Source: Secundilactobacillus folii (GTDB taxonomy: Bacteria > Bacillota > Bacilli > Lactobacillales > Lactobacillaceae). Taken from it: a DNA stretch of 64,000 nucleotides. The translations under genes and the position numbers were made by a program. The stretch is taken from positions 62,001 to 126,000 of the forward strand of contig NZ_WNJO01000006.1 of the NCBI RefSeq assembly GCF_009720675.1, given 5' to 3'. Positions 1,420 to 61,549 of the stretch are shown here, piece by piece. The notes below the pieces were generated by a model. That model ran no database searches. It saw nothing but the letters and a program-made list of their open reading frames with translations, and had not been told where the DNA came from. Every line of letters starts with the position of its first letter. Position 1 is the first letter of the stretch.

Positions 1420-1547
1420 GTGCGGAACAAGGCGTTTTGAGACCGGCGTGTAAGGTGACGCTGGCATAATTTACGGGTGCTTTTCCCATGAATTATGTCA
1501 GGGTTGACTTACACATAGGTCTCAGCCTTGTGCAGCACGTTTCGGCT
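1420..1547 (-). repeat. Palindromic repeat element, single copy at the gpmA 3' end
   Basis: About 128 bp, an imperfect palindrome of the same family as the arrays at 28661-29170 and 60898-61549. It reads as the reverse complement of those copies. Matching arm pairs are GAGACC/GGTCTC, GTGTAAG/CTTACAC, and an inner CTGGCATAATT/AATTATGTCAG pair. Its GTGCGGAACAAGGCG end lies two bases after the gpmA stop codon, the same placement seen at asnA and at the thrE-like gene. No ORF is present. Confidence 0.88.
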
Positions 1548-1582
1548 ACGATGCCCAAACAGCTCGCACCTAAATATAAACA

Positions 1583-1633
1583 AAAAATGATCACTAACGG
1601 GCGTTAAGTCTGGCTCGTGGGTGGTCATTTTTC
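1583..1633 (+). terminator. Intrinsic terminator of gpmA
   Basis: AAAAATGATCAC and GTGGTCATTTTT pair across a 25-base loop, followed by a T run. A close relative of this hairpin follows the gpmA pseudogene at 7372-7425. Confidence 0.8.
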
Positions 1634-1703
1634 TGCGCCAAAATGAATGTACTAGGACGCCTGAGTGGCAAATAAAACTGAAATTGAATGGGAGTAAATA
1701 AAC

Positions 1704-1928
1704 TTGGATAACGCAATCACAAATGAAGTCTCACAACGTGAAATGATGAAGATCATCGGCCTTTTTCGGCAGAATAGCTTTCGTGGTGAGTACGCGAGCT
1801 TTAAACGTGGTGAAACTCAAGATCACTACCAGGTGATCTTGACGGATGAAAAATCAGGTGTAAAAGGATTATTCAAGGTAGATCTAGAAGCTGGTTCGAT
1901 TGAGTTCCAGCATGTGGTGATGGATTAG
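1704..1928 (+). CDS. Conserved-looking 74-residue protein, function unknown
   Basis: The start is TTG, chosen because GGGAG lies nine bases upstream and the frame has no better start. The product is small, soluble and polar, with no signal peptide, membrane segment or cysteine. I do not recognise the family. Coding status is supported by a diverged second copy at 7735-7962 in which most differences preserve the amino acid and the C-terminal stretch ending FQHVVMD is intact. It is followed by its own terminator. No function can be read from context: the neighbour upstream is gpmA, separated by a repeat element and a terminator. Confidence 0.75.
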   Translation: MDNAITNEVSQREMMKIIGLFRQNSFRGEYASFKRGETQDHYQVILTDEKSGVKGLFKVDLEAGSIEFQHVVMD

Positions 1929-1955
1929 GCGTCACCAGTCATAGGTATAGAAGAA

Positions 1956-1993
1956 GGGTCAAGGTCGCGGTTGTGCGATCTTGACCCCCTTTC
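1956..1993 (+). terminator. Intrinsic terminator after the 74-residue gene
   Basis: GGGTCAAGGTCGC pairs with GCGATCTTGACCC across a short loop, followed by a pyrimidine-rich CTTTCTATTT tail. Confidence 0.82.
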
Positions 1994-2112
1994 TATTTAT
2001 GAAGTCTTATTTTTCAAAATAGTAATGAATAGCGGCTACGCTATGATGATTATCGGAACGCCGTTAGCGCTAGTTAGTGACCTAAGAAAACAGTGAGAGC
2101 ACTCAATTTATA

Positions 2113-2141
2113 TTCAATTAAGCCTGTGCTTCCGGTATACT
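2113..2141 (+). promoter_or_regulatory. Sigma-A type promoter of the small membrane protein gene
   Basis: TTCAAT at 2113 and TATACT at 2136 are separated by 17 bp. The expected start site near 2148 gives a leader of about 45 bases before the ORF at 2193. Confidence 0.6.
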
Positions 2142-2192
2142 GAGCTAAGTAGAGGGTTAGTGACGGTTGGCAAATCCAATTGAAGTGAGTTG

Positions 2193-2378
2193 ATGCCTAT
2201 GAGTGTTTCTGCTTGTAGTGAGGATTCTATTCTAGAGAGAGGACAAGCCATTTTAGGCTTACTGAGCTTTTTGATTGTGTTGGTTGGCAAGTTGACAGCA
2301 TTAGTATTGGCGCTTACTGCGTTGATCTATGCTGGAATCAAGTTGATTGATGCATGGCGGAAGTTGGAAAAAGACTAA
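2193..2378 (+). CDS. Small single-span membrane protein, possible holin-like type I toxin
   Basis: 61 residues from ATG 2193; ATG 2199 is an equally possible start behind GAAGTGAG. A short polar N-terminus is followed by a long hydrophobic stretch (about residues 18-49) and a charged tail ending KLEKD. This shape matches holin-like type I toxins and other small stress membrane proteins of Firmicutes, but I see no decisive family motif. It has its own promoter and a terminator that works on both strands. A promoter-like sequence on the opposite strand at 2502-2510 could give a short antisense RNA ending at that terminator, as in type I toxin-antitoxin loci. The toxin call is inference. Confidence 0.6.
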   Translation: MPMSVSACSEDSILERGQAILGLLSFLIVLVGKLTALVLALTALIYAGIKLIDAWRKLEKD

Positions 2379-2381
2379 AAT

Positions 2382-2426
2382 AAAAACCGTTCCGCTAACT
2401 TTGACAGGTTCGGAATGGTTTTTTTG
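2382..2426. terminator. Bidirectional intrinsic terminator
   Basis: AAACCGTTCCG and CGGAATGGTTT pair across a 16-base loop. A T run follows on the plus strand and a T-rich stretch follows on the minus strand, so it can end transcripts from both sides. Confidence 0.8.
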
Positions 2427-2462
2427 TTCGTAACTATGCCACCGTCTTTAACGGCTCTGCAT

Positions 2463-2510
2463 GGAAGTCCTATTTGCAGTAGGGCTTCTTTTTATGTCTT
2501 AAGTATAACA
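2463..2510 (-). promoter_or_regulatory. Candidate antisense promoter and hairpin downstream of the small membrane gene
   Basis: On the minus strand an extended -10 box TGTTATACT covers 2510-2502, with no good -35 box. A start near 2495 would give an RNA of about 115 nt running through the GAAGTCCTA/TAGGGCTTC hairpin (2463-2492) and ending at the bidirectional terminator 2382-2426. On the plus strand the same hairpin is followed by T5 and could be a second terminator. Confidence 0.35.
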
Positions 2511-2760
2511 TATTTAAGACTAGAATAGCCCATCCACAATCAATAACTACCGTTTTTCAGGAGCGGTACATAAGCAACGAATATGACAAAGTGACAGGTA
2601 TTGAGTAATAGGAGATGTGGATTGGCCAATAAAATCCGATACCGCATCAGTATCGGGAATTAAAAAGGTAGGTAAGAGCATTGAACGCAGCACGAAAAAC
2701 AGCTATGGTGAACTGTTCGTCGCGAAATGAAACAAATTATAAATCCGGGGTTGATAATTA

Positions 2761-2925
2761 GCTAGAAGAAAAGTTTCTTAATGTAGTTTCAACTAAAAGT
2801 GAAGATGCTGTCCAAAGCATATTTGACGAACAGGGACAGATTATAGAATATTTAAAAGAACATCGCTTTATTATTTGACAATTCGGGTATTGAACAGTTA
2901 CAGGAATTCTTTTGGAAAAAATAAT
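2761..2925 (+). pseudogene. Frameshifted remnant of an unidentified small gene
   Basis: The frame opens directly after a TAG with LEEKFLNVV and runs 38 codons to a TGA near 2878. The +1 frame then reads DNSGIEQLQEFFWKK to a stop near 2923. Both halves are polar, helical-looking and share the AT-rich codon use of the islet. There is no start codon with a ribosome binding site. I cannot assign a family. Confidence 0.35.
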
Positions 2926-3054
2926 AATGCAAAAAAGAAGCAAATTCACAAAAAAATCCCACCTTTTTCTTATGGAAATCATATTATTTTAATAATATTA
3001 AGATATCGAAAAGCTATTTACTCGATAAAGTTCAGGTAAAAGGATGTGTTCAAA

Positions 3055-4338
3055 ATGAACAAGACAGTTAGTAAGTTACTTTTATCCGGTATGTTATCTC
3101 TTAGCCTTGTAGGAGGAAGTGTTATCAGTAATATTTCCTTAGTTGCTCATGCAGAAGAAACTACGTCAACATCAAGTTCATCGACTGCTACACCTGATAC
3201 CGAAACGATTACACGAGAACAAGAAACGCAAAATTTATTAAATGACCCAGATAATAAACGAATTTTAGCTAATGAAGCTGAAGGTATTGATGATAGTGAT
3301 GCTAGTATTGAGGCACCAACAGTAGTTAGTCGTGATGATTTTAATAATGATAATGAATATTACTCATATTTGCGTACTCATCCGTATGTAAAAACAACAG
3401 ATACTATTTCAACACGTTCGGCTGATGTTGCTATGGCAGGGGCTACAACTGCTGCTAAAGAATATTCATTTGAAGGTCTTCAACATACAACTGTTATTCA
3501 AAAAGCATACATTGGCTCTACCTACATTTACGTAACGCAATTATCAGGACAAGATTTATACTTATCACGGTGTCGAATTGAAGGAAACGTAGCAGTTTAT
3601 CAAGATGAAATGAAATTAACAGATTTTGGACACTCTCAAACACTAGAAGAATTTAAGTACAATGATGAATATTATTTCTGGATTGGATGTAAGGGAGTGG
3701 AAACTACTTCAAGTGGTATTCCGTGGTCAACTCAAGTAGCACGAATTCAGTACAGTCCAGGTGAATTAAAATATACAGACGCTCCACGATTCTCAAGTAT
3801 TAATTACCTTAATAACACAGGAGCTTCAAATGGAAGTATGACGCGTTCTGACAGTGCACTTTCAAGTACTACTAATCGACTATTTATTTGGACTAAGAAT
3901 GGTGATGGTACTGCTCATTATGCGTCCTATGACGCTACCCAAATGAATCAGATTTTAGATGAAGCTGTTAGCTCTGGCGGAAATTTATATGTGCCATTCA
4001 CTGATTCACGAGTACATGCTGCTTATATTGCCGGGCACCCGATGACTGCATCAGCATTGACCAGTTTAATATCGTATGATTCTATTCAAGGTTTTGAATA
4101 TAACGATGCAGATGCAATTTATATTTCTAGCGGTCAAGAGGGAGATACACCAGCGATGGTAAAATTTGCTTGGAATACAACTTCAGGATCTAAAGTAACG
4201 CTAAATAATAGTGAGTTTGGTTCTACGACGGAAACTGAAGGAATGCAACTCAAAGGTGATGATGTTCACCTAGTTGTTGATTTTCATGACAATCCAAATG
4301 TATCGATGATTTACAGTGTTCCTAAATCAGCATTTTAA
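3055..4338 (+). CDS. Secreted helveticin J-family class III bacteriocin-like protein
   Basis: Start ATG 3055 is chosen over GTG 3046 because AAAAGG lies 11 bases upstream of the ATG and too close to the GTG. Residues 1-33 form a Sec signal peptide with a cleavage site after AHA. A Ser/Thr-rich stretch and an acidic linker follow. From about residue 135 to the end the protein carries the helveticin J-type domain: TVIQKAYIGSTYIYVTQ, LYLSRCRIEGN, FGHSQTLEEF, FWIGCKG, and a YISSGQ motif near the C-terminus. Family members are large heat-labile antilisterial or anti-lactobacillus proteins of about 330 residues, so this 427-residue form has an N-terminal extension. No immunity or export gene is adjacent. 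Base composition is more AT-rich than the housekeeping genes, which suggests transfer. Confidence 0.82.
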   Translation: MNKTVSKLLLSGMLSLSLVGGSVISNISLVAHAEETTSTSSSSTATPDTETITREQETQNLLNDPDNKRILANEAEGIDDSDASIEAPTVVSRDDFNNDNEYYSYLRTHPYVKTTDTISTRSADVAMAGATTAAKEYSFEGLQHTTVIQKAYIGSTYIYVTQLSGQDLYLSRCRIEGNVAVYQDEMKLTDFGHSQTLEEFKYNDEYYFWIGCKGVETTSSGIPWSTQVARIQYSPGELKYTDAPRFSSINYLNNTGASNGSMTRSDSALSSTTNRLFIWTKNGDGTAHYASYDATQMNQILDEAVSSGGNLYVPFTDSRVHAAYIAGHPMTASALTSLISYDSIQGFEYNDADAIYISSGQEGDTPAMVKFAWNTTSGSKVTLNNSEFGSTTETEGMQLKGDDVHLVVDFHDNPNVSMIYSVPKSAF

Positions 4339-4367
4339 CTTTTAAATAAAAGGGGCTGGGACATAAT

Positions 4368-6020
4368 TCAGCCTTGAATTAAAAAGTAGCTCAATGAACT
4401 CAATTTTTGAGTTTGTTGAGCTACTTTTTGGTGACCATCCGGTTTACTTTGGGGTTTCACCCCCATATTCTTAGCCAATTTCTTCAGATTAGCGGCCATT
4501 AGCACAATCCCCAGCTCATTAGTAACGGACTGTAATCCTCTGACTGATAATCGTTTGAACGCTAAATTAGCCTTCAAATTACCGAAAACTGACTCAACTT
4601 CAATCTTACGACGTCAATAGATTGATTTACCAGTTTCGCTTGAAAGCTTTAGTCGGATTACATTTTTCTGCATCTCCCAATGGGGATTAACTTGGATTTG
4701 ACGTTGGTTACCACCTTTATTGAGCGAATAATCAATGTCGTTGTTTTCGGGTTGCTCGTCAGCTTCATAAACTCGAGTATGGCGGGTAAAACCATATTTA
4801 TCGGTTCGAGTTGAAAGAGCTTTAAATGAAAAATGTACGTTGTGGTCATCTGTAAAGCTGTCAGTTTGATGGTCATAACGCCAGTTCATGACCTTGTGGA
4901 CATCTTTAAGATACTTACGAGTTTGCTCCTTCAAATACATGGTGTAGGGGATGAGCGGGGTTGCTCCAAACTCCTGCAGAATGAAGTCATAGTTCGATTC
5001 ACTGCCATATCCGGCATCGGCCACAATATAACGGAAGATTCGTCGGCTCTTCTGAGCGGTTTTCAAAAATGGTTGTAACGTTCGCTGATCAGTCGGTCGT
5101 TGATTAACTGTATAGTAAAGGACATGTTGACACTGCGTCCCAATTTGCAGATTATACCCCGACTTCAGTTGCCCGTTATTCATGGGGTCTTCTTTCATAC
5201 GCATAAAGGTGGCATCATGGTCGGTTTTGGAAAAGCTATTACGATCACCAAAAGTTGCCTTGGCAGTTTCGTATTTGCGTTTTCGCGGAATCAAATCCGT
5301 TTTAATGATGTGTTGTAAGTGTTTTAGTGTCCGTCTTCGCCGCTTCCGTGGCGAGCCATCTTGACTTGCTTTTTCGGTTTCAATTGTCTGGTTTAGATTA
5401 TTAATTTCCTGATCTAGTTTTTGACTGGCTGCTTCTAAGTTAGCTAATGGACCTTCTTCAGTTAGCGCTAAATCAACATTGGCCTGAATCAACTCATCAA
5501 AGATTGATTGAGCCTTTTCATCTAACTTCGCATCAAATTTTTCGATGCTTTTCCGCCAAACAAAACTATATTTATTAGCGTCAGCGACCATCTTGGTCCC
5601 ATCAATAAACAGGGCACTATCGTCGACTAATTCGTAGTCGCAGAGTTGATTATGGAACTGTAAAAATAGCTCTTTAATCAGGGATTAAGTACTTTTAGCA
5701 ACTCGAAATCGATTGATAGTTCGGTAACTCGGGACATCGTCACAGTTACCAATTAACCACATCATCGGTAAATTTTCTTCGGCCATCTGTTGGATACCTC
5801 GTCCTGAAAAGGTTTTGCGGGTGTAGGCGAAAATAATCATTTTCAACATCATCGCCGGTGAGTACTGTGGTCGTCCAAACTCAGCGGACGCTGGGTACAA
5901 TACCGCTTCCGGAATGCTATCGATAAAATTGCTAATAAAAGCGGCAACGTGGTTAGTCGAAATTGTAAATTCAAAAGGAATTGTCAATGTTGTTTGGTTA
6001 TTGTTATACTGTTTGTACAT
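4368..6020 (-). pseudogene. IS1182-family transposase with two in-frame stop codons
   Basis: DDE transposase of the IS1182 family. The natural start is ATG 6020 (MYKQYNNNQTTL) with AAAGCAGG upstream. The frame continues without any shift to 4368, but is interrupted by TAA at 5685-5687 after RVAKST and by TGA at 4614-4616 after GKSIY. Between and after the stops the reading is normal family sequence: FIDGTK upstream of the catalytic core, VADAGYGSESNY in the middle, and RRKIEVESVFGNLK just after the second stop. Total length would be 550 codons, normal for the family. Two nonsense changes make it inactive unless both are suppressed. Confidence 0.9.
4381..4433. terminator. Hairpin inside the left end of the insertion sequence
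   Basis: AAAAAGTAGCTCAA pairs with a matching GTTGAGCTACTTTTT, with a second inner stem AACTCA/TGAGTT. Both flanks carry A or T runs, so it can work in both directions. Confidence 0.75.
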
Positions 6021-6097
6021 GATATGTTCGCCTGCTTTCTTTTGTTGTGGTGATTTGAGATTAACAGACACGGGCATATCGTGCCTACATAAAAGTA

Positions 6098-6146
6098 AAA
6101 AATAGGTCGTAAAATTCGAAAATCCGAATTTTACGACTTATTTTTA
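6098..6146. terminator. Hairpin inside the right end of the insertion sequence
   Basis: A 19-bp stem (arms around 6100-6118 and 6124-6142, one G-T pair) with T runs on both strands, upstream of the transposase start. Confidence 0.75.
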
Positions 6147-6309
6147 AGCGGGGACTTTTGTCCCAGCCCCTTTTATTTTCTCTTAATCTTTTTAAGATGT
6201 AAAAAGGTTGATAATGAGGATTGCATAATGCTATTATGAATTGGAATACTGGTACAGATACGGTGCTTTTAAGTTAAAGTATCCCGAATAGCTGAAAGAA
6301 GGAATCACT

Positions 6310-7002
6310 ATGAATAAGATAATTATTAGAAGTTTGACTTTAGGCACTTTGGCACTTGGTATTGGGTTTACTACACAGCAGGTTAACGCTAGTGCTGCAT
6401 ATCGGACGGTTAAAACGAAGAGTTATGCTAGTACAACGCCAGCATATCATGCAAAAAATGCAACTAAATCGGTTTATATGTGGAATAGTACACTAACTAA
6501 GAAGTTGCATAACTTGAAGAATTACCCTAAAACAACGTGGTACGTTCAAAAGAGTGTTAAGTTAACTAATGGTAAAAAAACTGGTATTTTCTACTATGTA
6601 AAAAATAAGAGCAACTCAGCAAGTGGGTATGTTTGGCGTAGTTACTTAACTAAGGGTAAATTTGCAGCTAAGTCAGGTACAAGTACTACCTCAACTACCA
6701 CCACAACGGATTCTACAGTAGCAACGAGTAGCAATAGTCTTACTTTTAAGTACGTTAATGCTACTTCAGGGGCAACGGTTGCAAGTACTTCATGGATTGT
6801 ACCGTCAAACTTATTAAAGTCAGGTGCCTCATTAAGTGAAGGCACTAGTATGAAGAGTATTTTAAAAGATATTACAAGCGTATTATCGGCTGCAACTGCT
6901 GATGCACCAACTGGCTATGATATTACAGACACAACTTATCCTAATGTTGTCACATCTAAGGTAGGGGAAACGTTAATTTTCCATGTGCTTCCTCAAAATT
7001 AA
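6310..7002 (+). CDS. Small secreted surface-type protein of lactobacilli
   Basis: 230 residues with AGAAGGA nine bases before the ATG. A signal peptide ends around residue 28 (QVNA-SAA). Residues 31-115 resemble the SH3-like wall-associated domain found in many lactobacillus exported proteins, with VYMWN, KNYPKTTWYV, FYYVKN and SGYVWRSYL. A Ser/Thr-rich linker (about 120-140) leads into a C-terminal domain of about 90 residues that I do not recognise and that contains several aliphatic strands. No LPXTG anchor is visible. The gene is AT-rich like the bacteriocin gene and sits between the dead insertion sequence and the gpmA pseudogene, so it belongs to the accessory islet. Confidence 0.78.
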   Translation: MNKIIIRSLTLGTLALGIGFTTQQVNASAAYRTVKTKSYASTTPAYHAKNATKSVYMWNSTLTKKLHNLKNYPKTTWYVQKSVKLTNGKKTGIFYYVKNKSNSASGYVWRSYLTKGKFAAKSGTSTTSTTTTTDSTVATSSNSLTFKYVNATSGATVASTSWIVPSNLLKSGASLSEGTSMKSILKDITSVLSAATADAPTGYDITDTTYPNVVTSKVGETLIFHVLPQN

Positions 7003-7120
7003 TTAAATTAGCAGTGCAATAGAATAGGTTAAGATTTTAGCTGATTAATACGTCACTAGAATGTCACCAAAAATGCCACCAATGATGATAGTAATACCGT
7101 TATATCAGCATTACAGGGTA

Positions 7121-7329
7121 CATTCTGGGAAGATGAGATTGCACCAAAGCTGCTTGACGACAAAAACGTCATCATCGCAGCTCACGGTAACTCATTACGG
7201 GCCTTGAGCAAGTACATCGAAGGTATCTCTGATGAAGATATCATCAACCTTGAAATGAAGACTGGCCAACCAGTTGTCTACGACTTCAACGAAAAGCTTG
7301 AAGTACAAAGCAAGACGAAGCTTGGTTAA
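7121..7329 (+). pseudogene. gpmA: Diverged 3' fragment of phosphoglycerate mutase
   Basis: 68 codons plus stop, matching the last 68 codons of gpmA (1210-1418) with roughly four of five bases the same by eye and mostly silent differences. It starts abruptly at [11 protein letters not shown] with no start codon or ribosome binding site. It has lost the phosphohistidine motif but keeps the [11 protein letters not shown] part. It marks the right-hand boundary of the accessory islet. Confidence 0.9.
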
Positions 7330-7371
7330 TTAGCAACACAAACTTTTAGCTCACAACTTAAAGTTAAACAC

Positions 7372-7425
7372 AGAAAAATGATCACTGAAGGGTGGCAATT
7401 GAGGCCCAGTGGTGATCATTTTTCT
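7372..7425 (+). terminator. Intrinsic terminator after the gpmA fragment
   Basis: AGAAAAATGATCACTG pairs with CAGTGGTGATCATTTTTCT, nearly perfect, with a T run. It is the counterpart of the gpmA terminator at 1583-1633. Confidence 0.85.
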
Positions 7426-7517
7426 GTGCGGATTATGGATAAATACGGATAATGCTGGCACTAGCGGTCACTAATCGTCTCTGATTGGGCGCTGGGGTCG
7501 CTATTCGTGACGGCAGA

Positions 7518-7635
7518 GTGTGGAAGAAAACGGGTTGAGACCGGAGTGTAAGCGAGCCTGGACATAGCTTGGGTTTGGCTTTGTGTTCAGGATTGCTTAC
7601 ATGCAGGTCTCAGTTTTCTGGAGCACGTTTCGGCT
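7518..7635 (-). repeat. Palindromic repeat element, single copy
   Basis: About 118 bp of the same family and same orientation as the copy at 1420-1547. The arms GAGACC/GGTCTC are conserved, while the inner core has drifted (CTGGACATAG against TGTTCAGGA). Here the element lies after the terminator, whereas in the first gpmA locus it lies before it. Confidence 0.78.
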
Positions 7636-7734
7636 ATGTAACAGGTAAGCTGAATGAGGCGCTTTTAAGTTAAAGTGCTTCATTCAAGCTGGCTAAATAA
7701 TAAAAACTAAAATCGAATTGGAGCATATATTACC

Positions 7735-7962
7735 TTGGATAACGTATTAGAACAAGAAGTTTCACAACGCGACATGATGAAGATCATCGGCCTTTTCCGG
7801 AAGAACAGCTTCCGTGGCGAATATGAGAGTTTCTAACATGGTAAGGGCGGTCAAGACGAGTATATGGTCGTTTTGACGGATGAGAAGTCAGGCGTTAAGG
7901 GATTATTCAAGGCAGATTTGGGGACTGGTTCGATTGAGTTCCAGCATGTGGTGATGGATTAG
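7735..7962 (+). pseudogene. Second copy of the 74-residue gene, broken by a stop codon
   Basis: It has the same TTG start and the same ending FQHVVMD as the gene at 1704-1928. An in-frame TAA follows GEYESF, where the intact copy has a lysine codon, and one extra codon is present just after it. GGAG lies upstream of the TTG. The downstream half is still readable without frameshift, so the inactivation looks recent compared with the divergence between the copies. Confidence 0.85.
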
Positions 7963-8012
7963 GCTTTGCCTTTCACATTAGTTTAGAAAAGGGATTAAGT
8001 TCGTGATTGGCC

Positions 8013-28546: not shown

Positions 28547-28660
28547 GATGATTATTTACACATGCAAGTTTTTATTGATGTTTGGAATGTTTATTTTTCA
28601 GAGGCTAGGGATTTTGAAACGCAAGAACTTGCGGAGCAGCTAATTTACATAGCCTAAATA

Positions 28661-29170
28661 GGTTCCGAAACGCAGAGACCTATGTGTAAGGAAACTTCGA
28701 CACAATTCACGGCCAAGTTCGCCGCAAATTCTGTCGAAGTCAGCTTATACTCCAGTCCTTAACCGCGTTTCTCCGCACCTAGCTTAATCAGGCTCCACAA
28801 GGCAAGGACTTGCACGTAAGTTAACTTCGACATAACTAACGGCAAAAGTCGCCGCAAATTCTGTCGAAGTAGCCTTACGCTTCAGTCCTTAACCGCCTTG
28901 TTCCGCACCTTGTCTAATCGGGCTCCGAAACGCAAAGAACTATGTGTAAGGCAATCCTGACATAATTCACAGCAAAGCCCGCTGCAAATTCTGCCAGGCT
29001 TCCCTTACACGCCGTTCTTTAACCGCGTTTCTCCGCACCTTGCCTAATCGGGCTCCACAAGGCAAGGACTTGCACGTAAGTCAACTTCGACACAATTCAC
29101 GGCCAAGCCCGCCGCAAATTCTGTCAAAGTTGCCTTACGCTCCAGTCCTTAACCGCCTTGTTCCGCACCT
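28661..29170 (+). repeat. Tandem array of four palindromic repeat units, 130-bp period
   Basis: Units of 120 bp start at 28661, 28791, 28921 and 29051, exactly 130 bp apart, separated by 10-base spacers of the type TGCCTAATCG. Each unit is a long imperfect palindrome. Units 1 and 3 have outer arms GAAACGC/GCGTTTC. Units 2 and 4 have ACAAGGC/GCCTTGT. Inner arms change in step as well: AAAGAAC/GTTCTTT with GTGTAAG/CTTACAC in unit 3, AGGACT/AGTCCT with CGTAAG/CTTACG in units 2 and 4. The right end lies four bases after the asnA stop codon. A degraded fragment of a further unit lies at about 28615-28645. The units contain no ORF or IS-type terminal repeat. Confidence 0.92.
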
Positions 29171-29174: not shown

Positions 29175-30182
29175 TTACAAAATATGAATTCCCGCTTCTT
29201 CACACTTATCAATCATTTCTTGTGGCCACAACGCTGCCTGTACTTCACCCACATGAACCTTACCAAGCAACAACATGCACAAGCGTGACTGGCCAATCCC
29301 GCCACCAATCGTATACGGTACCTCTTCATTCAACACCATTTTGTGATACGGCAACTGCAAACGATCCTCAGCTCCAGCAATCTTTAATTGCTTTCTCATT
29401 GAGTCCGCATCCACACGGATACCCATGCTAGAAATTTCAATCTTTTGATCCAATGGTTCGTACCAGAAGATGATATCGCCGTTCAATTCCCAATCGTCAT
29501 AGTCAGGTGCCCGGCCATCATGCTTCTTGCCACTCTTCAATGCACCACCGATCTTCATGATGAAGACACACTTGAGTTCCTTAGCAATCAGATCTTCACG
29601 TTCCATTGGCGTCTTATCTGGCCAACGATCCTCCAGCTCTTGGGTAGTCACGAAGTGAATCTCATCTGGCAAATGATAGACGGATTGCGGGAACTTGTAC
29701 CAAACTTCGTGTTCCATATGCTTGATGACTTTGAAAATCTGACGCACGGTGCTCTTTAACGTTTCCACGTTGCGTTCTTCTTTGGTGATGACCTTTTCCC
29801 AGTCCCATTGGTCCACGTAAGCGGAGTGGAAGTTATCTAGATCTTCGTCTTTACGAATGGCGTTCATGTTGGTATAAATACCTTCGTGAAGCTTAAAGCC
29901 ATAGCGCTTTAAAGCAACTCGCTTCCATTTCGCAAGAGAGTGCACGATTTCAATCGTTTCATCGCCCATGTCCTTCATTGTGAAGGAAACTGGTGTTTCA
30001 ACACCGTTCAAGTTATCGTTCAAGCCGGTTTTCTTTTCAACAAACATTGGTGTTGAGATCCGTGACAGGTTCAGTTCTTTGCCAAATTCTTCTTGGAAAG
30101 TTTCACGGATGTAACGAATAGCGTCTTGAGTTTCACGGACGGACAACTTTGGTTCATATGACTTTGGAATAATTAAATGCAA
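29175..30182 (-). CDS. asnA: Aspartate-ammonia ligase (asparagine synthetase A)
   Basis: Makes asparagine from aspartate, ammonia and ATP in the cytoplasm. It has 335 residues, the usual length for AsnA. Class II aminoacyl-tRNA synthetase-like features are visible: MDKVxx-type core in [11 protein letters not shown], the DQWDWEK motif, and the C-terminal [14 protein letters not shown] motif. It is preceded by a complete T-box leader with an asparagine codon in the expected place, so expression rises when tRNA-Asn is uncharged. The stop codon is followed after four bases by a four-unit palindromic repeat array. Confidence 0.98.
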
Positions 30183-30212: not shown

Positions 30213-30495
30213 TAAAAAATGAAGCCTTTTATCCCATAACCAAGGGACGAAAGACTTCATTTCGCGGTACCACCCAAGTTGCCTATCCATAGATAAGCCA
30301 CCTCAATACGCGTACAAACATACGCTCCGATGGTAACGTTTCGGTGACGGCGAGGCTTACTTCAAAAAGGTTCGGCCCGCAACTAAGAAAGTGTTATTCA
30401 GAATAGTCACACACTGATTGGGTTCACACCGTTTCCCAACTCACTGATAGGGCAACTAAACTTACTCGTCTTTCCTACGTTTTTAATCTCTAATC
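30213..30495 (-). promoter_or_regulatory. T-box leader of asnA, asparagine type
   Basis: The conserved T-box core GGGTGGTACCGCG is read on the minus strand at 30275-30263. A terminator hairpin (30262-30214, AAATGAAGTCTTTC with GGCTTCATTT and a T run) follows it. An AAC codon at 30395-30393 lies in the expected specifier loop region. The leader is about 290 nt. It senses uncharged tRNA-Asn, matching the product of asnA. Confidence 0.93.
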
Positions 30496-54917: not shown

Positions 54918-55111
54918 ATTTGCTGCCTACTTTCTTGAATGTTGAAACGTATCATCACAGCTATATTTGACTTAGTTGAAATTTTGATCACTCGTTTAAA
55001 GCATGATTCATTATCAATGCTAAGCTTATGACTGTATTTTAATATTAGCCCTTGAATCACGGTCTAAGTCAAACAATTTGAACGATTCGTACGGGGATTT
55101 TATTTTGACCA

Positions 55112-55657
55112 CTAGAGCTTAGCCAATTCGTTTAGGAGGGCAGCCTTAATGAGTGGAATCTGAGCGGCGTTATAGACGTCGAAATAGACCTGGTTGTGAA
55201 AGTTTTGACACTGGTCAATGCCGACGTACCGGAACGAAATGTCCAGGGGCTGTAACAGATCCGGTACGGTCAATCCTTTAGTTAACGCGTTATTGGGCGC
55301 GTAGGTTTCCGGTACCGCCGCCAAAGTGGTGACGTAAGCGAACTGTTTACCGGTCATCAAGGCAACCGGCTGACCGTTTTCATCGGCGTCGTAGAACTTG
55401 TGTAGGGCAAAGACGTCATCAATATAGCGTTTTAGCCCCCACGGCACCGCATACCAGTAAAGCGGGAAAAATAACAGGATCAAATCGGCCCAGCGAAATT
55501 TCTCGTATTCTTCGCCAGCTTGGTAGTTGGTCACAGCTGTCAGTTGGAGATCGTTGTGAGCTGCTAGCGTGTTTTGGCTCAAATCCACCAGCATCTGGGT
55601 CAGTTTACCACCGGCATCGGGATGGGGTGTGTAGCCATTGATCAGAAGAATTTTCAT
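55112..55657 (-). CDS. Flavodoxin-fold NAD(P)H oxidoreductase
   Basis: 181 residues from ATG 55657, set by AAGAGGT; the longer frame to 55759 has no site. The NGYTPHPDAGGKL loop near residue 7, the FPLYWYAVPWGLKRYIDDVF segment near 75 and the YVTTLAA motif match the NQO1/MdaB-type flavin quinone reductases. It probably reduces quinones by two electrons using NAD(P)H. Single gene. Confidence 0.87.
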   Translation of the reverse strand: MKILLINGYTPHPDAGGKLTQMLVDLSQNTLAAHNDLQLTAVTNYQAGEEYEKFRWADLILLFFPLYWYAVPWGLKRYIDDVFALHKFYDADENGQPVALMTGKQFAYVTTLAAVPETYAPNNALTKGLTVPDLLQPLDISFRYVGIDQCQNFHNQVYFDVYNAAQIPLIKAALLNELAKL

Positions 55658-55877
55658 TGCGGTTACCTCTTTTGGCACATGATATGAGTTGAGTTCATGT
55701 TGAAGGTTAGGCTTAAATGCACGATAACGGTGCTGGCATTTGAAGTCTACCATCATCAAAACGGCTGGTAATTACCCCACGATTCGTTAAATAACTGCTG
55801 TTAAATAAGTTTCAGTAGGCCCCCTCTTGAGAGAGACTACCAAGGCTAGCCAGCTTTTACCCGCCAGCACTTATATT

Positions 55878-56147
55878 TTAAAGCAGATGGGGATCATAGA
55901 AGGGGCGCTCAATGTTACCCCGGCCAAAACGACGGTGAACTTTTTGCTGATGCGGCTGTGCACCCTTAACGCGATTTTGACGTTGGTGAAAATGAGTTCG
56001 GGGTGTAGCAGTTTTCAATGCAGAAGGCACTTTGCTGACTCTGGCTTGACGAGGCTCTCGCTGCCGTGGTGTGTGAATACTTAAGTGCCGTTTTTCACTC
56101 GAAAAAGAAACCTGATGACGATCAAATAATTTTTTCAATTCAACCAT
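55878..56147 (-). CDS. Small basic protein of unknown function
   Basis: 89 residues, start ATG 56147 with AAGAAAG upstream, behind a near-consensus promoter at 56169-56197 that leaves a leader of only about 15 bases. The product is strongly basic and rich in Arg, His, Gln and Pro from residue 20 on, with no hydrophobic segment or cysteine, so it is probably disordered and may bind nucleic acid. I recognise no family. The strand choice rests on the promoter; the opposite-strand ORF at 55827-56084 has no ribosome binding site. Confidence 0.6.
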   Translation of the reverse strand: MVELKKLFDRHQVSFSSEKRHLSIHTPRQREPRQARVSKVPSALKTATPRTHFHQRQNRVKGAQPHQQKVHRRFGRGNIERPFYDPHLL

Positions 56148-56168
56148 TCTTTCTTAACGTTTGATTCC

Positions 56169-56197
56169 ATTATACCGGTCTTTGGTCATTATCTCAA
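56169..56197 (-). promoter_or_regulatory. Near-consensus promoter of the small basic protein gene
   Basis: TTGAGA (56197-56192) and TATAAT (56174-56169) on the minus strand, exactly 17 bp apart. One of the best promoter matches in the window. Confidence 0.75.
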
Positions 56198-56440
56198 AAA
56201 GTTACTGGGCATCGTATGCGTCAAGTTCTTCTCGGTAACTTCTCAAATAGAGTTCTATGTCATGCTGTGGTGCCTGGTTTGCGTAGACTGCCGATTCCGG
56301 TAGTCAGCCAGGTTCCTGCTGTCGCGACACAGCATCCACCTAGCAGCCTACCTCCATCTCCGTTGTTCGCTTTGCCACGGCACAGATCTGTTGATCCCAT
56401 AATTCTAAGCAAGCTGCTTGGACTGCGCAGAAGATGACGC
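56190..56440. ncRNA. GC-rich, highly structured segment, candidate non-coding RNA
   Basis: It is noticeably richer in G and C than its flanks. A nested hairpin has an outer stem ATGCTGTG/CACAGCAT (56262-56269 with 56328-56335), a middle stem CCTGG/CCAGG (56273-56277 with 56308-56312) and an inner stem GACTGCC/GGTAGTC (56286-56292 with 56299-56305). A competing hairpin TGCTGT/ACAGCA uses part of the outer stem. On the minus strand AAGTTAC...GTAACTTTTTG at about 56242-56195 forms a stem followed by T5, like a terminator, so a minus-strand RNA is possible. ORFs in either strand lack a good start. I cannot match it to 6S, SRP, tmRNA or RNase P RNA. Confidence 0.35.
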
Positions 56441-56671
56441 TAAGTTCCGTTATTAATAGGCATTCAATCTCTAATAATGATGTTTGAGTCTTTTAGTTAG
56501 ATTCTAAATCTGCTAAAATTTGATTCATGGAAGGCTCTTACCCCTAGTTTTTTAAAGAGAAGGGCTCTTTCTCTGTCAAGATAAACCCTAAAATTAGTAC
56601 ATATATTCACTACCGAGATAAATTTTACACTAACCTGGGTATCAAAAAGCGGTTTGATCAATCAACCCGAC

Positions 56672-56699
56672 TTGCATTTTTGAAAAACTCGGTTATAAT
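56672..56699 (+). promoter_or_regulatory. Promoter of the T-box transcript
   Basis: TTGCAT at 56672, 16 bp, TATAAT at 56694. Confidence 0.65.
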
Positions 56700-56714
56700 T
56701 CTAATTAATATTTA

Positions 56715-56942
56715 ATGTCGAGATTACAAATTGAGTAGCATCTGATCTGGGTGTCAGGAAGTTGGCGGTGGCTGCGAGCCAATCAGGGTCAGAAGAGCGA
56801 ACTACGTAGAGATCGACGCTGGGTAACGCTAGAACCATTATTTTCTGGTGAGTGGTGTACAAATGTACACAATTTGGGTGGTACCACGGTAGAAGTCTAA
56901 TCGTCCCTGTTGCAGTTAATGCAATGGGGACGATTTTTTATT
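56715..56942 (+). promoter_or_regulatory. T-box leader, tyrosine type, upstream of the NhaC-family gene
   Basis: Stem I starts at GTCGAG (56716) and closes at ATCGAC (56812-56817). The AGTA element follows on the 5' side. A TAC codon at 56803-56805 (GAACTACGTAG) lies in the specifier position, meaning tyrosine. The T-box core GGGTGGTACCACGGT is at 56875-56890. The terminator (CGTCCCTGTTGC with GGGGACG and a T run) ends at about 56942. The transcript would be read through when tRNA-Tyr is uncharged. Confidence 0.9.
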
Positions 56943-57044
56943 TGGAAGGGGTAAGCGAGATGAGAACGACAAGCGGCGGTATGGCACGATATTGATTGGC
57001 TCACAATGGTTGAATGACGGGTTCAGACAAAGAGAGGTCAATTG

Positions 57045-58439
57045 ATGATGAAAAAAATTTCTTTAAGCTTACGAGAAGCAATTATTATGTTGGTGATCAT
57101 TTTATTTATCATGGGCAGTGGGGTGATCGGTTTAGGACTATCACCGCAAGTGCCTGTGCTGCTAGCCATTACCGTGACGATTTTTTGGGCCAAGTTCAAG
57201 GGCTTATCCTGGGATGCAATTAATAAAGGCATCAAAGACGGGATCGATAAGGGGATTATTCCAATCGTGATCTTCATCTTGATTGGTGCCATGATCAGTA
57301 CCTGGATCGCATCCGGCACCATTCCAACCTTGATGGTGATTGGTTTTAGAGCCATTAGTGCTCAGTGGTTTTTACCCACCGTCTTTCTAGTTTGTGCCCT
57401 CGTTGGATCAGCCGTGGGTAGCTGTTTCACCGTTGTTTCCACGGTGGGCATCGCCTTCTTCGGTATCGGTGTAACAATGAGTTTTAACCCGGCTTTGGTT
57501 GCGGGTGCCGTTATTTCTGGCGGGATCTTCGGTGATAAATGCTCACCGCTTTCTGAAACCAGTAATTTAGCTGCAGCCGTCGTTGATACGGATCTGTTTG
57601 ATCACATGAAGACGATTTTATGGTCCACCGTTCCCGCTGCTGCAATCAGCACCGTTGCATTTGCCATTCTTGGCTTCGGCCACAACCACGCAGACCTAGA
57701 TAAAATCAACACAACGGTGGCGGCCTTAAACCAAAACTTTCATATTTCATGGGTCACGCTCATTCCAATTGTTCTAGTCTTTGTCTGTGCCGGCTTTAAG
57801 ATGGCTGCCATTCCGACGATGCTGTTAAACGTGCTGGTTTCTGGTGCCATGATGTTTATCAATAACCCATCGTTAAGTGTCAATAAAGCAAGTACGATCA
57901 TCACTAACGGCTTTGTCGCTAAAACGACCAACAGTGAAGTTAATCTGCTGCTATCTCGTGGCGGTATCGTCAGCATGATGCCAACCGTTGCCCTGATTGT
58001 CTTAACCCTGTCACTTGGGGGCCTGTTAGTCAACTTTGGTTTGATCAGTGCCGTGATGACGCCGTTAGCAGCGCATCTGAATTCCAACGCGAAATTGATC
58101 ACAGCCGCACTGATCTCCTGCCTAGGGATCAACGTTTTTGTTGGTGAGCAGTTTCTATCAATTATCCTGCCAGGCCGTTCCTTCAAGAAAGCCTTTAACG
58201 ATGGGGGCTTAGAAAGTTCAGCTCTGGGGCGGGTCCTTGAAGATGGCGGTACGGTTCTCAACTACTTGATGCCCTGGGGTGTCGGTGGCGTTTTCCTAGC
58301 AAATACCCTGGGAGTGCCAACGATTCAGTACCTGCCATTCGTCTTCTTCAGTCTATTATGCCCAGTTATGTCGCTCGTCAGCGGCTTTACTGGAATTGGT
58401 CTTCACGTCCGTAAGCCGATTGCTGAAGTTAACGCCTAA
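57045..58439 (+). CDS. NhaC-family antiporter-like transporter, candidate tyrosine transporter
   Basis: 464 residues from ATG 57045 behind AGAGAGG, with about 11-12 membrane segments. The GGIFGDKCSPLSETSNLAA motif near residue 165 is the NhaC signature. NhaC-family members exchange sodium and protons or, in several lactic acid bacteria, are predicted amino acid transporters because they sit behind T-boxes. Here the leader T-box has a tyrosine codon, so tyrosine uptake is the most likely role. This substrate is inferred from regulation, not from residues. Confidence 0.87.
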   Translation: MMKKISLSLREAIIMLVIILFIMGSGVIGLGLSPQVPVLLAITVTIFWAKFKGLSWDAINKGIKDGIDKGIIPIVIFILIGAMISTWIASGTIPTLMVIGFRAISAQWFLPTVFLVCALVGSAVGSCFTVVSTVGIAFFGIGVTMSFNPALVAGAVISGGIFGDKCSPLSETSNLAAAVVDTDLFDHMKTILWSTVPAAAISTVAFAILGFGHNHADLDKINTTVAALNQNFHISWVTLIPIVLVFVCAGFKMAAIPTMLLNVLVSGAMMFINNPSLSVNKASTIITNGFVAKTTNSEVNLLLSRGGIVSMMPTVALIVLTLSLGGLLVNFGLISAVMTPLAAHLNSNAKLITAALISCLGINVFVGEQFLSIILPGRSFKKAFNDGGLESSALGRVLEDGGTVLNYLMPWGVGGVFLANTLGVPTIQYLPFVFFSLLCPVMSLVSGFTGIGLHVRKPIAEVNA

Positions 58440-58576
58440 TAGTTGAGCCATTGCTTAGGTGACGTTTGCTATGAAGTGTATCAAAATTATTCATGTTTTC
58501 GAGCTGATTTTTCAGGTGATAAATGATACACTGGATTTAAGTACAAAATTAATAACTTTGAAGGGGTGGCTCAATT

Positions 58577-58807
58577 ATGGCATTGAATTTAACTAAGGAA
58601 CAACTGAAGCAGTACGATGGTAAAAATGGTAACAAAGCTTACGTTGCAATCGACGGTACGATTTACGACGTGACTGATGTTGACGCCTGGAAGGACGGCG
58701 CACATCACGGCCATACAGCTGGTAAAGACCTCAGTGATGCAATCATGACAGCTCCTCATAAGAAGAGTGTTCTGGCCAAGTTACCAGTCGTTGGCAAATT
58801 AGTTTAA
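58577..58807 (+). CDS. Cytochrome b5-like heme-binding domain protein
   Basis: 76 residues behind GAAGGGG. The small domain matches the soluble bacterial cytochrome b5 family: NLTKEQLKQYDGKNGNKAYVAIDGTIYDVTDV, then AWKDGAHHGHTAGKDLS with the first heme-ligand histidine in place of HPGG, and a second histidine in APHKKSVL. No signal peptide or membrane segment is seen. Lactobacilli mostly do not make heme, so it would bind heme from outside or another ligand. It is a single gene with its own terminator. Confidence 0.88.
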   Translation: MALNLTKEQLKQYDGKNGNKAYVAIDGTIYDVTDVDAWKDGAHHGHTAGKDLSDAIMTAPHKKSVLAKLPVVGKLV

Positions 58808-59166
58808 AATTTAATAGGTGTACTTTAGTTTGAGTGTTTCTGTTTGATTCATCATTAAAGCTCATAACTCGAGTATGAATGATCCCTTTATAGTTGTCGG
58901 ATGATGGCACATGCTTCATCTAACCATTATGGAGGGATTTTTATTATTTAAATTTTTAAGTGACTGGTCTCGAAATACTGCCGTTCTAGCGCTTGAATAA
59001 CTGGATTTAACGACGTTAGTAATGGCGTGGTACCCTGAATTTAGATGGCGTTAAGGGCCACATTAATTTACTTTTTTTCAGGTAGACAATGTCAAAGAAG
59101 TTTTAGTCAACTCGGTTCAGATAGGTTACACTATAAGTAATCATTTTGACGTTTGGAGGATTTAAT
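58808..59166. other. Intergenic region with a terminator and the promoter of the AI-2E family gene
   Basis: The terminator at 58881-58948 fills the first part. From 58949 to 59166 no gene is seen; TTCAGG...ACACTATAAG near 59080-59138 contains a TATAAG that may be the -10 box of the next gene. Confidence 0.45.
58881..58948 (+). terminator. Terminator of the cytochrome b5-like gene
   Basis: GATCCCT...AGTT pairs with AACC...AGGGATT, with an inner GATGATGG-type stem around loop CACATG, then T5. Several bulges. Confidence 0.7.
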
Positions 59167-60300
59167 ATGACGGTTTCCAGATCCACACTGATCAAATCAA
59201 GCATTGTAGTTGCCATCTTTCTGGTTTGCATCATCTATCCGGGTCAAATCTTTGGCGCTCTCGGTAAATTGGTCTCAGTGCTGAACCCATTGATTCTGGG
59301 TGCAGTTCTGGCATACTGCGTGAACTTACTGTCCCGTCAGCTAGAGAAGTGGTACTGGCCACATGCCGAACAGAAATTAGCCCGTGGATCACGCCGGCCG
59401 TTAGCTATTCTAACCGCTCTGGTGATCATTATTTTGATCATTGCCGGGGTATTGCGGCTCGTAATTCCGCAATTTGCGGAAGCCATTAACGGCTTTTTCA
59501 AGACTGCTCCCAGTACGGTCAATGACATTGTTCGTTGGCTAAATCAATTTGATCAAAATAACGCCATTAGTCAACGGATTTCAGCGGCAACCGCTTCCTT
59601 TAACTGGACGTCCATTCAGCAAAAAGCGACGAAATACCTAACAGCAGGTGCATCTGGGGTCTTCTCCTCGACTGTTTCCATCTTTAGCAATATTTTTTCA
59701 GGCGTGGTTAACTTTGTGCTCGCATTTGTTTTTTCCATCTATCTGATTAGTGGTAAGGAAAAGATTGGTGGTTGGTTAAACCGTCTAATGGATGATTTTT
59801 TACCCGTTAAATTTGTTGCGAAGACCCGGTACGTTATTAGCGTGACGAATAAAATGTTTTCAAGCTTTATTGCTGGTCAAGTGTTAGAGGCTTTCATATT
59901 GGGTACGCTATGTACACTTGGGATGCTCCTATTCCGCTTTCCCGACGCTTTATCGGTTGGTGCGTTAGTTGGTGTGACCGCTTTGATGCCAATGATTGGT
60001 GCTTGGATCGGTGGCATCGTCGGCTTTGTGCTGATTGCCGTTTCGTCGCCGCTGCAAGCGATCCTGTTTGTGGTCTACATTTTGATTCTGCAGCAAATCG
60101 AAGGTAACTTGATTTACCCTCGGGTCGTTGGTGGCACGATTGGTTTACCGGGTATTCTAGTGCTAGCAGCTATTACGATCGGTGGCGGATTAGGAGGCAT
60201 CGTTGGGATGTTGCTGGCGGTACCGATCACCGCCACTTTGTACCGTCTGATGCGCCACGCGACGTTTAAAAAAGAAGGATTAGAAGTTAAAAATATTTAG
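59167..60300 (+). CDS. AI-2E family transporter (TqsA/YtvI/PerM type)
   Basis: 377 residues from ATG 59167 behind TTGGAGGA. Seven to eight membrane segments: two at the N-terminus, a central soluble part (about 95-180), then the conserved second half with SFIAGQVLEAFILG, LIGVTALMPMIGAWIGG and IYPRVVGGTIGLPGI. Members are permeases of uncertain substrate, with some acting as sodium/proton or autoinducer-2 exporters. Single gene with a short terminator. Confidence 0.92.
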   Translation: MTVSRSTLIKSSIVVAIFLVCIIYPGQIFGALGKLVSVLNPLILGAVLAYCVNLLSRQLEKWYWPHAEQKLARGSRRPLAILTALVIIILIIAGVLRLVIPQFAEAINGFFKTAPSTVNDIVRWLNQFDQNNAISQRISAATASFNWTSIQQKATKYLTAGASGVFSSTVSIFSNIFSGVVNFVLAFVFSIYLISGKEKIGGWLNRLMDDFLPVKFVAKTRYVISVTNKMFSSFIAGQVLEAFILGTLCTLGMLLFRFPDALSVGALVGVTALMPMIGAWIGGIVGFVLIAVSSPLQAILFVVYILILQQIEGNLIYPRVVGGTIGLPGILVLAAITIGGGLGGIVGMLLAVPITATLYRLMRHATFKKEGLEVKNI

Positions 60301-60302
60301 TC

Positions 60303-60330
60303 GAAAGCCCAACTGCGGTTGGACTTTTTT
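60303..60330 (+). terminator. Terminator of the AI-2E family gene
   Basis: AAGCCCAAC pairs with GTTGGACTT with one mismatch, loop TGCG, then T6. Confidence 0.75.
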
Positions 60331-60549
60331 GCTGGCTGAATGGTTGGAAAATACAACATATGTGATTAATTTAACATGATTTAAATAAGTCACTCTTTGC
60401 GGAATTTATTTTTAGTTTTAGTTTTTTATTGGTACACCAGACTTTTTCAGCTATGGAGAAAAATTTGATTAATCGAAATAATGATGGATATTTTGATATT
60501 GTGAATCATTAAACTAGAAATTGGTTCCTAATCGAACTATACTAAAGAT
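60331..60549. other. AT-rich intergenic stretch
   Basis: No gene. The -10-like box TATACT at 60538-60543 near its end is the likely promoter of the RNA candidate that follows; no good -35 is visible. Confidence 0.5.
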
Positions 60550-60796
60550 GGTTCCAAAAAAGGAACCAAACCATTCAAAACCGACAGAAGATTTTCAAAA
60601 TTCTTCCTTTTGCTTGGTGTGAGTAATGGTAGTTCAGCGCTCAATAGAGCACTGAGGACAGGCGCAGATTTTAGGAGTAGGGTCTGAACCTTTCATTAAC
60701 TACTATTGGGCGCTAATGAAGTGCGATTCCTCATTTGCAGTCTATCGCTGCAGAAAATAACACCTTTGGGAATTTTCCCTTGGGTGTTGTTTTTTG
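60550..60796 (+). ncRNA. Candidate stand-alone non-coding RNA with intrinsic terminator
   Basis: About 247 nt from a TATACT box (60538) to a terminator. The 5' part has the perfect hairpin GGTTCC-A6-GGAACC. The central part can form two exclusive helices. One pairs AATGGTAGTTCAG with CTGAA and ACTACTATT. The other pairs AGCGCTCAATAG (60636-60647) with CTATTGGGCGCT (60703-60714), 12 bp with one G-T pair. GAGGA (60654-60658) could also pair with TCCTC (60727-60731). No ORF or downstream gene on this strand exists, so it is not a leader. It might be a 6S-like or other lactobacillus RNA, but I cannot match it. Confidence 0.55.
60757..60796 (+). terminator. Intrinsic terminator of the RNA candidate
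   Basis: AACACC...GGGAA pairs with TTCCC...GGTGTT, loop TT, then T6. Confidence 0.85.
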
Positions 60797-60830
60797 CTGT
60801 TTGGTTTTTGAGTTTTATATTGAGTTATTG

Positions 60831-60880
60831 GACTGCACGAGGTAAGGACTTGCGTGTAGGCAGCTCTTAAGCGCACCTTA
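60831..60880 (+). repeat. Deletion remnant of a palindromic repeat unit
   Basis: It carries the outer arms of the family (GACTGCACGAGGTAAGGACT and GCGCACC) but the inner core is lost. It precedes the five complete units. Confidence 0.65.
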
Positions 60881-60897
60881 TCTACTTAGCCGAATCG

Positions 60898-61549
60898 GGC
60901 TGCACAAGGCAAGGACTTGCGCCTAAGTCCACTCTGCCATAATTCACGGCACAACCCGCCGCAAATTCTGCCAGAGTTGCCTTACGCTCCAGTCCTTGAA
61001 CGCCTTGTTCCGCACCTTAGCCGAATCGGGCTCCACAAGGCAAGGACTTGCACGTAAGGCCACTTCGACATAATTCACGGCCAAACCCGCCGCAAATTCT
61101 GTCAAAGTTGCCTTACGCTCCAGTCCTTAAGCGCCTTGTTCCGCACCTTAGCCGAATCAGGCTCCACAAGGCAAGGACTTGCACATAAGCAGTCCTAGTC
61201 AAAAACCCAGGCAACCCACCTGGCTTTCTGCCTAGGCCCGCTTACGCTCCAGTCCTTAAACGCCTTGTTCCGCACCTTAGCCGAATCGGGCTCCACAAGG
61301 CAAGGACTTGCACATAAGGCAACTTCGACACAATTCACGGCACAACCCGCCGCAAATTCTGTCAAAGTTACCTTACGCTCCAGTCCTTAAACGCCTTGTT
61401 CCGCACCTTGTTCGACTACATAGACTAACTGGGCTCCACAAGGCAAGGACTTGCACATAAGCAGTCCTAGTCAAAAACCCAGGAAACCCACCTGGCTTTC
61501 TGCCTAGGCCCGCTTATGCTCCAGTCCTTAAACGCCTTGTTCCGCACCT
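60898..61549 (+). repeat. Tandem array of five palindromic repeat units
   Basis: Units start at 60898, 61029, 61160, 61289 and 61432 (lengths 120, 120, 118, 120, 118; steps 131, 131, 129, 143). All have outer arms ACAAGGC/GCCTTGT and AGGACT/AGTCCT. Units 1, 2 and 4 have the inner core seen at asnA (CTTCGACA...TGTCAAAG type). Units 3 and 5 share a different core with its own stems CCTAG/CTAGG and CCAGG/CCTGG. The array ends three bases after the stop codon of the thrE-like gene on the opposite strand. Spacers read TTAGCCGAATC. Confidence 0.92.

Follow-up and report, generated by a model that had tools for sequence, protein, structure and literature searches.

The window analysed here is a 64,000-nucleotide (nt) stretch of the Secundilactobacillus folii genome (contig NZ_WNJO01000006.1) carrying a family of long imperfect palindromes, several of which lie directly behind stop codons. 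A covariance-model search of the window located 11 full hairpin copies, the number given in a preliminary description of the same DNA; one fragment is also present. Single copies follow the gpmA gene and a truncated second gpmA segment, and arrays follow asnA and a thrE-like gene.

1419-1548, forward strand: full copy, directly behind the gpmA stop codon TAG (1416-1418)
1583-1638: terminator hairpin downstream of the gpmA copy 1419-1548
7517-7636, forward strand: full copy with diverged stems, behind the truncated second gpmA segment
7644-7694, forward strand: second hairpin, within an extra ~58 nt beside copy 7517, not present in the empty site (see below)
29040-29169, complementary strand: asnA array copy 1, 5 nt past the asnA stop codon (complement 29175-29177)
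28910-29039, complementary strand: asnA array copy 2, outer-stem variant AGAAACGCG
28780-28909, complementary strand: asnA array copy 3
28650-28779, complementary strand: asnA array copy 4
61421-61548, complementary strand: thrE-like array copy 1, 4 nt past the stop codon (complement 61553-61555), with a different inner stem
61278-61407, complementary strand: thrE-like array copy 2
61149-61276, complementary strand: thrE-like array copy 3, inner stem as in copy 1
61018-61147, complementary strand: thrE-like array copy 4
60887-61016, complementary strand: thrE-like array copy 5
60821-60886, complementary strand, limits approximate: degenerate fragment of a sixth thrE-like array copy

The asnA array (28650-29169, complementary strand) consists of four tandem copies with a period of 130, and the thrE-like array (60887-61548, complementary strand) of five. 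Measured from the model edge, the gaps to the stop codons of gpmA, asnA and the thrE-like gene are 0, 5 and 4 nt; the offsets of 1, 4 and 3 bases reported earlier differ from these through the choice of element start. With up to three mismatches allowed, the end motif GGTGCGGAACAAGGCG is found at 10 places, against 0.39 expected. Copy 7517 abuts no stop codon; its upstream sequence comprises the truncated gpmA segment (7121-7329), the terminator of that segment (7374-7429) and an inverted repeat recognised by eye. The flank of this second segment and its downstream gene (7121-7975) shares 93% identity with the gpmA locus of another genome of the genus (G010), so the segment may be imported.

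Each copy is an imperfect palindrome, ~115-135 nt long, that has ~46 pairs, internal loops and constant ends. Read in the sense of the upstream gene, the ends are 5' A-R-RGTGYGGA and 3' RRCACGTTTCRGCTA or GCCCGATTCGGCTA. Inward from the ends come an 8-bp stem, then a four-base bulge (GTTA-like) and a second stem of 6 bp, then an internal loop of three by three bases (GGA/GCA-like), followed by a third stem of 7 bp in which TAAG/CTTA is mostly constant, and finally a long inner stem. The bases of the internal loop are conserved and stay unpaired while the stems vary. At the left edge the base is A in 93% of 65 stop-adjacent and 96% of 52 other clusters, followed by R; the base preceding this edge is T in 56% of cases beside stops and mixed elsewhere. 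No invariant GTAG tag is common to all copies.

Two stretches that were folded proved much more stable than shuffled sequence, the gpmA copy plus its terminator at z -7.4 and asnA array copy 1 at z -8.3. Pairing is maintained through extensive change. Among the 11 window copies, 20 of the 46 pairs have changed on both sides and 94.4% of alignment cells remain paired (85.1% when shuffled). The 79 copies aligned from the whole genome are 93.1% paired against a shuffled mean of 74.4%, and 131 copies from relatives 96.0% against 68.3%, and 18 and 35 of the 46 pairs, respectively, include three or more of the four Watson-Crick types; both alignments were cleared of other-strand shadow hits and fitted to the covariance model, which favours pairing. 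G-T cells make up 8.6% in both sets, and A-C cells 1.7% (own genome) and 1.1% (relatives). This excess of G-T over A-C indicates that it is the gene-sense strand that folds, as RNA or as single-stranded DNA. The same architecture is found with different inner stems in copies 1 and 3 of the thrE-like array and with different stems throughout at locus L296, which means that the covariance model under-counts the family. At L093, L298 and the second gpmA units of L102-L105 there are tandem units that keep the loop and 3' arm and have no 5' arm, which suggests slippage-like growth of the arrays.

A model-based search of the whole genome and its relatives, as the preliminary description had proposed, shows that the pattern holds well beyond the window. 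Once shadow hits are removed, the S. folii genome has no fewer than 79 copies, grouped into 40 clusters (best 150 of 873 candidates scored). In a search of 60 genomes, all 15 genomes of the genus match at E 0.001, the weakest being G014 with one match; counts per genome reach at least 57, other-strand shadow hits included. With the best 8 candidates scored per genome, 158 of 397 genomes of the family match at E 1e-4, and G014 gives no match under this tighter limit on candidates. Within the order, 21 of 295 genomes match at E 1e-9, and six of these belong to other families. Genomes G449, G493, G498, G514, G557 and G578, from four other families of the order, have one to four matches each, and G037 has two in the 60-genome search; these represent distant relatives or transfer. 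A degenerate 5'-arm pattern written from copies of the genus matched 98 stretches in a collection with one genome per species, and the 80 matches that were listed all belong to Secundilactobacillus or Lentilactobacillus. The same pattern had no exact match among viral contigs, and a single 411-base query gave no blastn match among plasmids and phages.

Placement was assessed on 250 clusters, of which 208 were distinct after removal of the 8 with mixed orientation, of duplicates and of clusters less than 300 nt from the end of a locus; subtracting 36 that overlap a called open reading frame (ORF) and 9 without a neighbour left 163. Genes were taken as open frames of at least 90 codons, not from annotation, and the loci are best-scoring or pattern-matched copies and not a random sample. 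In 90 of the 163 clusters a stop codon faces the 5' edge at a distance of no more than 15 nt, compared with 14.0 ± 3.0 expected for uniform placement and orientation within the same gaps. The 3' edge is that close to a facing stop in 5 of 163, a stop being present on that side in 76. Gaps of the 90 stop-adjacent clusters are all 9 nt or less: 29 are 0, 51 are 1-9 nt and 10 are negative, with the stop codon within the span of the model (one at -57). The remaining 27 of the 117 stop-facing clusters comprise 5 at 16-99 nt and 22 at 100 nt or more.

The excess is present in the S. folii genome alone (21 of 35 clusters, 2.3 ± 1.4 expected), in its relatives (69 of 128, 11.7 ± 2.6 expected) and when one cluster is kept per upstream-gene family (69 of 138, 11.7 ± 2.7 expected). 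Counted another way, 23 of the 40 S. folii clusters lie at -10 to 15 nt from a same-strand stop. The adjacency to stop codons noticed at first in three places thus holds beyond the window. The fixed orientation claimed for it stands as a preference, since in gaps between codirectional genes the 5' end points toward the stop in 69 of 97 cases (p = 4e-5), and fails as an absolute rule, since 46 of the 163 clusters turn this end toward a gene start. Clusters with several copies are almost always arranged head to tail, mixed orientation occurring in 8 of 250.

The stop codon beside the copies is TAG in 49 of 90 cases (14 of 76 in downstream control genes), as would fit completion of the codon by the A-G of the element itself. 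At locus L086 (G000:C58:81645-81766) a TAA within a partial 5' arm appears to terminate the upstream gene, so that the stop codon seems to come from a fragment of the element. Adjacent genes that could be identified are ordinary: a histidine-phosphatase-type gpmA, asnA, a threonine exporter, a C1-like peptidase, a nucleoside phosphorylase and sufB. The elements had been described as lying before the terminators, and this is true of gpmA in the S. folii genome; as a general statement it fails: 35 of the 90 stop-adjacent clusters are followed within 150 nt by a terminator-like hairpin, and other copies lie behind T runs.

Such T runs, which may be terminator ends, occur within 16 nt upstream of 18 of the 73 clusters away from stops, compared with 6.5% of 10,828 control positions. 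Among the 46 clusters that face a gene start, 12 adjoin a sigma-70-like -35 box that belongs to the divergent gene (4.6% in the control), and 10 adjoin a Shine-Dalgarno sequence with its start codon. At least one of the three features is present at 37 of the 73 non-stop clusters. These tests were devised after inspection of the flanks, and the p values (7e-7 for each of the first two) are post hoc; 3' edges also score, in 22, 6 and 6 of 163 clusters, with a T-run contrast of 25% vs 13%. The adjacency to T runs, promoters and Shine-Dalgarno sequences therefore counts as a lead. Among the 36 clusters with none of the three features, some, for example L031 and L204, probably sit behind stops of genes missed by ORF calling.

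Comparison of related loci reveals how copies come and go. The corresponding gpmA region of G010 (L108) has no counterpart of copy 7517, although its flanks are 93% and 88% identical; relative to this empty site, the window has gained the 120-nt hairpin and the ~58 nt holding the second hairpin, with nothing lost on the 5' side. The sequence comparison makes this a clear insertion. A probable second one, judged in the same way, separates the sister species G006 and G012 (L055/L315), where ~19 nt of the empty site were replaced. No clear target-site duplication was seen at the two empty sites, L108 and L315. Locus L276 does not have the copy present in L166 and L017, with flanks just 71-80% identical. 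The idea of a mobile element put forward in the preliminary description is thus supported as regards past insertion.

Seven sites were compared between G006 and G012, five chosen from G006 copies and two from G012 copies. One is empty in one species, four are filled in both (flanks 77-98% identical) and two are remnants from which the hairpin has been deleted, so that six of the seven sites are shared. Two further pairs are filled in both members, gpmA L105/L106 and L059/L076. Stems have diverged strongly with pairing kept in L158/L310, L105/L106 and L059/L076, moderately in L157/L318 and little in L160/L316. The inner stem of L158/L310 has been exchanged as a block. In the first copy of L160/L316 one pair has changed on both arms with no other substitution; this copy also shows a 2-nt gap difference at the 5' edge and a 7-nt indel at the 3' junction. 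The 5' gap shifts by a net 1-4 nt at 4 sites common to the sister species, a figure for which there is no control rate. Behind the gpmA stop, a copy with varying stems is present in 9 of the 15 genus genomes and none was found in the other 6 (stretch of up to 400 nt; ~135 nt in G014). The history of the family is one of insertion, long vertical inheritance, remodelling and decay by deletion.

No mobilising enzyme common to the genus emerged. The Y1 transposase family PF01797 is present in 7 of the 15 genus genomes and absent from 8 (S. folii itself, G000, and G002, G003, G004, G005, G009, G013 and G014); with the exception of G014, the genomes without it have 26 to at least 57 model matches each, other-strand shadow hits included. 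A transposase of the repetitive extragenic palindromic (REP)-associated tyrosine type (RAYT) is consequently not required at present, and a RAYT or other Y1 enzyme is rejected as a general mobiliser. IS630-type DDE_3 transposases were found in none of the 15 genomes and reverse transcriptases in just 3. A search of the S. folii genome for DDE_Tnp_1 returned a single broken copy with an internal stop (window 4485-5228), and open frames outline a broken DDE transposase gene at 4485-6077 on the complementary strand. Duplication of a TA target, suggested by the TA held in stop codons, was rejected because T before the edge is enriched solely next to stops. For an attC-like or group II-intron-like origin (5' GUGYG), raised from recall, no supporting feature was found and no further test was made. 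An enzyme that has since been lost may have been active in the past.

We favour, with moderate confidence, a REP- or BOX-like non-autonomous hairpin family, formerly or still mobile, that is placed in a polar manner and has been long inherited and remodelled. The folded gene-sense single strand would have been the substrate of a putative trans-acting enzyme, and polar insertion or one-sided loss of DNA would set the 5' edge against essential sequence. Abutment by the 5' edge is established for stop codons and suggested for T runs, Shine-Dalgarno sequences and -35-like boxes. Selection would then keep copies whose first two bases complete a stop codon or leave it intact, and copies at stop codons would persist because the protein is unharmed. 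Once transcribed, a copy is predicted to form a ~45-bp hairpin in the mRNA, mostly starting 0-9 nt past the stop. By analogy with Escherichia coli REPs this hairpin would impede 3' exonucleases and terminating ribosomes, and it could be cut by RNase III; we take any such effect on mRNA decay or termination to be secondary.

Several points weigh against the mobile-family interpretation. No Y1, DDE_3 or reverse-transcriptase family is common to the genus genomes. A purely selfish model on its own does not account for the 5' rather than the 3' edge standing at boundaries, nor for the mere 5 of 117 stop-facing gaps at 16-99 nt. Retention at orthologous gene ends across species could reflect a host function. 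Finally, the insertion at 7517 carried ~58 nt past the hairpin, so that the mobile unit may extend beyond it on the 3' side.

The placement might tentatively be ascribed to one-sided erosion, in which small deletions associated with the hairpin, or polar insertion-deletion, remove 5'-side DNA up to the first essential base. The pile-up of gaps at 0-9 nt with so few at 16-99 nt, the abutment of four boundary types (stop codon, terminator end, Shine-Dalgarno sequence and -35 box; a post hoc set) and the small gap shifts between the sister species, albeit lacking a control rate, are what erosion would produce; the empty site L108 argues against it, being an insertion without 5'-side loss. If erosion does occur, each copy marks, as a natural footprint, the limit of functional sequence.

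It is rather doubtful that the stems owe their pairing chiefly to mutation templated by the hairpin (quasi-palindrome correction) or to ectopic gene conversion rather than to selection, processes compatible with the other explanations. The single substitution per arm at one pair of L160/L316 and the block exchange in L158/L310 are as templating or conversion would leave them; on the other hand, the internal loops remain mismatched, and the bias to G-T over A-C needs strand-specific selection or a strand-specific bias. Whatever maintains them, sister-species sites shared with remodelled stems offer a natural experiment on the evolution of long palindromes.

We regard it as unlikely that the family is primarily a selected RNA element of 3' untranslated regions, acting on mRNA stability, RNase III processing or translation termination, with its spread secondary. 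The strand bias, the conservation of unpaired bases amid variable stems and the presence of copies with differing stems at the same genes in several species all agree with such a role, as does the stalling of ribosomes reported for E. coli REPs that lie no more than 15 nt from a stop codon (Liang 2015, cited in PMC12306157). It leaves unexplained the copies that are antisense to divergent genes, beside -35-like boxes or Shine-Dalgarno sequences, or behind T runs, and it fits poorly with the missing gpmA copy in 6 of 15 genus genomes and the loss of the hairpin from 2 of 7 orthologous copies. A predicted hairpin 0-9 nt past the stop may change translation termination or mRNA decay.

Movement as REP elements by a RAYT or IS200/IS605-type Y1 transposase, proposed in the preliminary description, is very improbable. 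Conserved hairpin mismatches, strand-specific constraint and gene-end placement would all suit it, and the E. coli transposase requires a conserved stem bulge (PMC8266576); it is contradicted by the absence of PF01797 from 8 genus genomes, seven of them rich in model matches, and by the lack of a GTAG tag shared by every copy. An origin as intrinsic terminators that multiplied into repeats can be dismissed as scarcely credible in spite of the stable hairpins at gene ends, since a run of at least five T at the 3' end occurs in just 2 of 163 clusters, a separate terminator follows the window gpmA copy, and T runs lie upstream in 18 of 73 non-stop clusters.

Only two Rfam matches in the window exceed their gathering scores, neither at a hairpin copy: a T-box leader 5' of asnA (30240-30486, complementary strand, 95.2 bits) and a RatA antitoxin RNA (2420-2505, complementary strand, 59.4 bits against a gathering score of 49), the latter likely marking a type I toxin-antitoxin locus. 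On the asnA array Rfam returned seven sub-threshold matches to miRNA families and none over the gathering score. No description of the hairpin family was found among the papers listed for Lactobacillus, the newer genus names and lactic acid bacteria, as covered mostly by titles and the openings of abstracts, with subscription papers outside the scope.

Palindromes at gene ends are best known as REPs, many of which are linked to a Y1 transposase. REPs of the GTAG/CGTC type, from Proteobacteria and other phyla, are 20-40 bp long with 5-13-bp stems and, at one of their ends, an unpaired GTAG or CGTC tag that does not vary, whereas the family described here has ~46 pairs and no invariant tag. Its placement near gene 3' ends (90 of 163 clusters) is REP-like. 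According to PMC3733652, members of two REP superfamilies are placed no more than 20 bp from the 3' ends of ORFs and often supply TAG stops. REPs and paired REPs (REPINs) mobilised by RAYTs have a cognate Y1 transposase, unlike the copies in the 8 genus genomes without PF01797. A far larger hairpin family in Lactobacillaceae, without Y1 in those 8 genomes, suggests another route of spread or a convergent pressure at stop codons.

Within the same order, the BOX, RUP and SPRITE elements of Streptococcus pneumoniae are likewise small structured repeats; BOX is modular (boxA, B and C), SPRITE is terminator-like and AT-rich, and we know of no sequence relation between any of them and the present family. 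The EFAR elements of Enterococcus faecalis, ~170-bp structured repeats with two stem-loops and stem-loop target sites, are similar by description only. EFAR is named among the miniature inverted-repeat transposable elements (MITEs) in PMC3733652, and PMC3049150 reports that BOX is over-represented between convergent genes and that 36 of the 58 coding sequences overlapping it take their stop codon from the element. A classical MITE shares terminal inverted repeats with a resident DDE insertion sequence and has a target-site duplication; here no DDE_3 transposase was found in the 15 genomes, one broken DDE_Tnp_1 copy is present in S. folii, and the two empty sites show no clear duplication. With the REP and BOX precedents, the behaviour of the hairpin family is of a known kind; its size, host group, lack of a constant tag, occurrence in many hosts without Y1 and strong stem turnover set it apart, and on these grounds it is not filed as a REP or a classical MITE.

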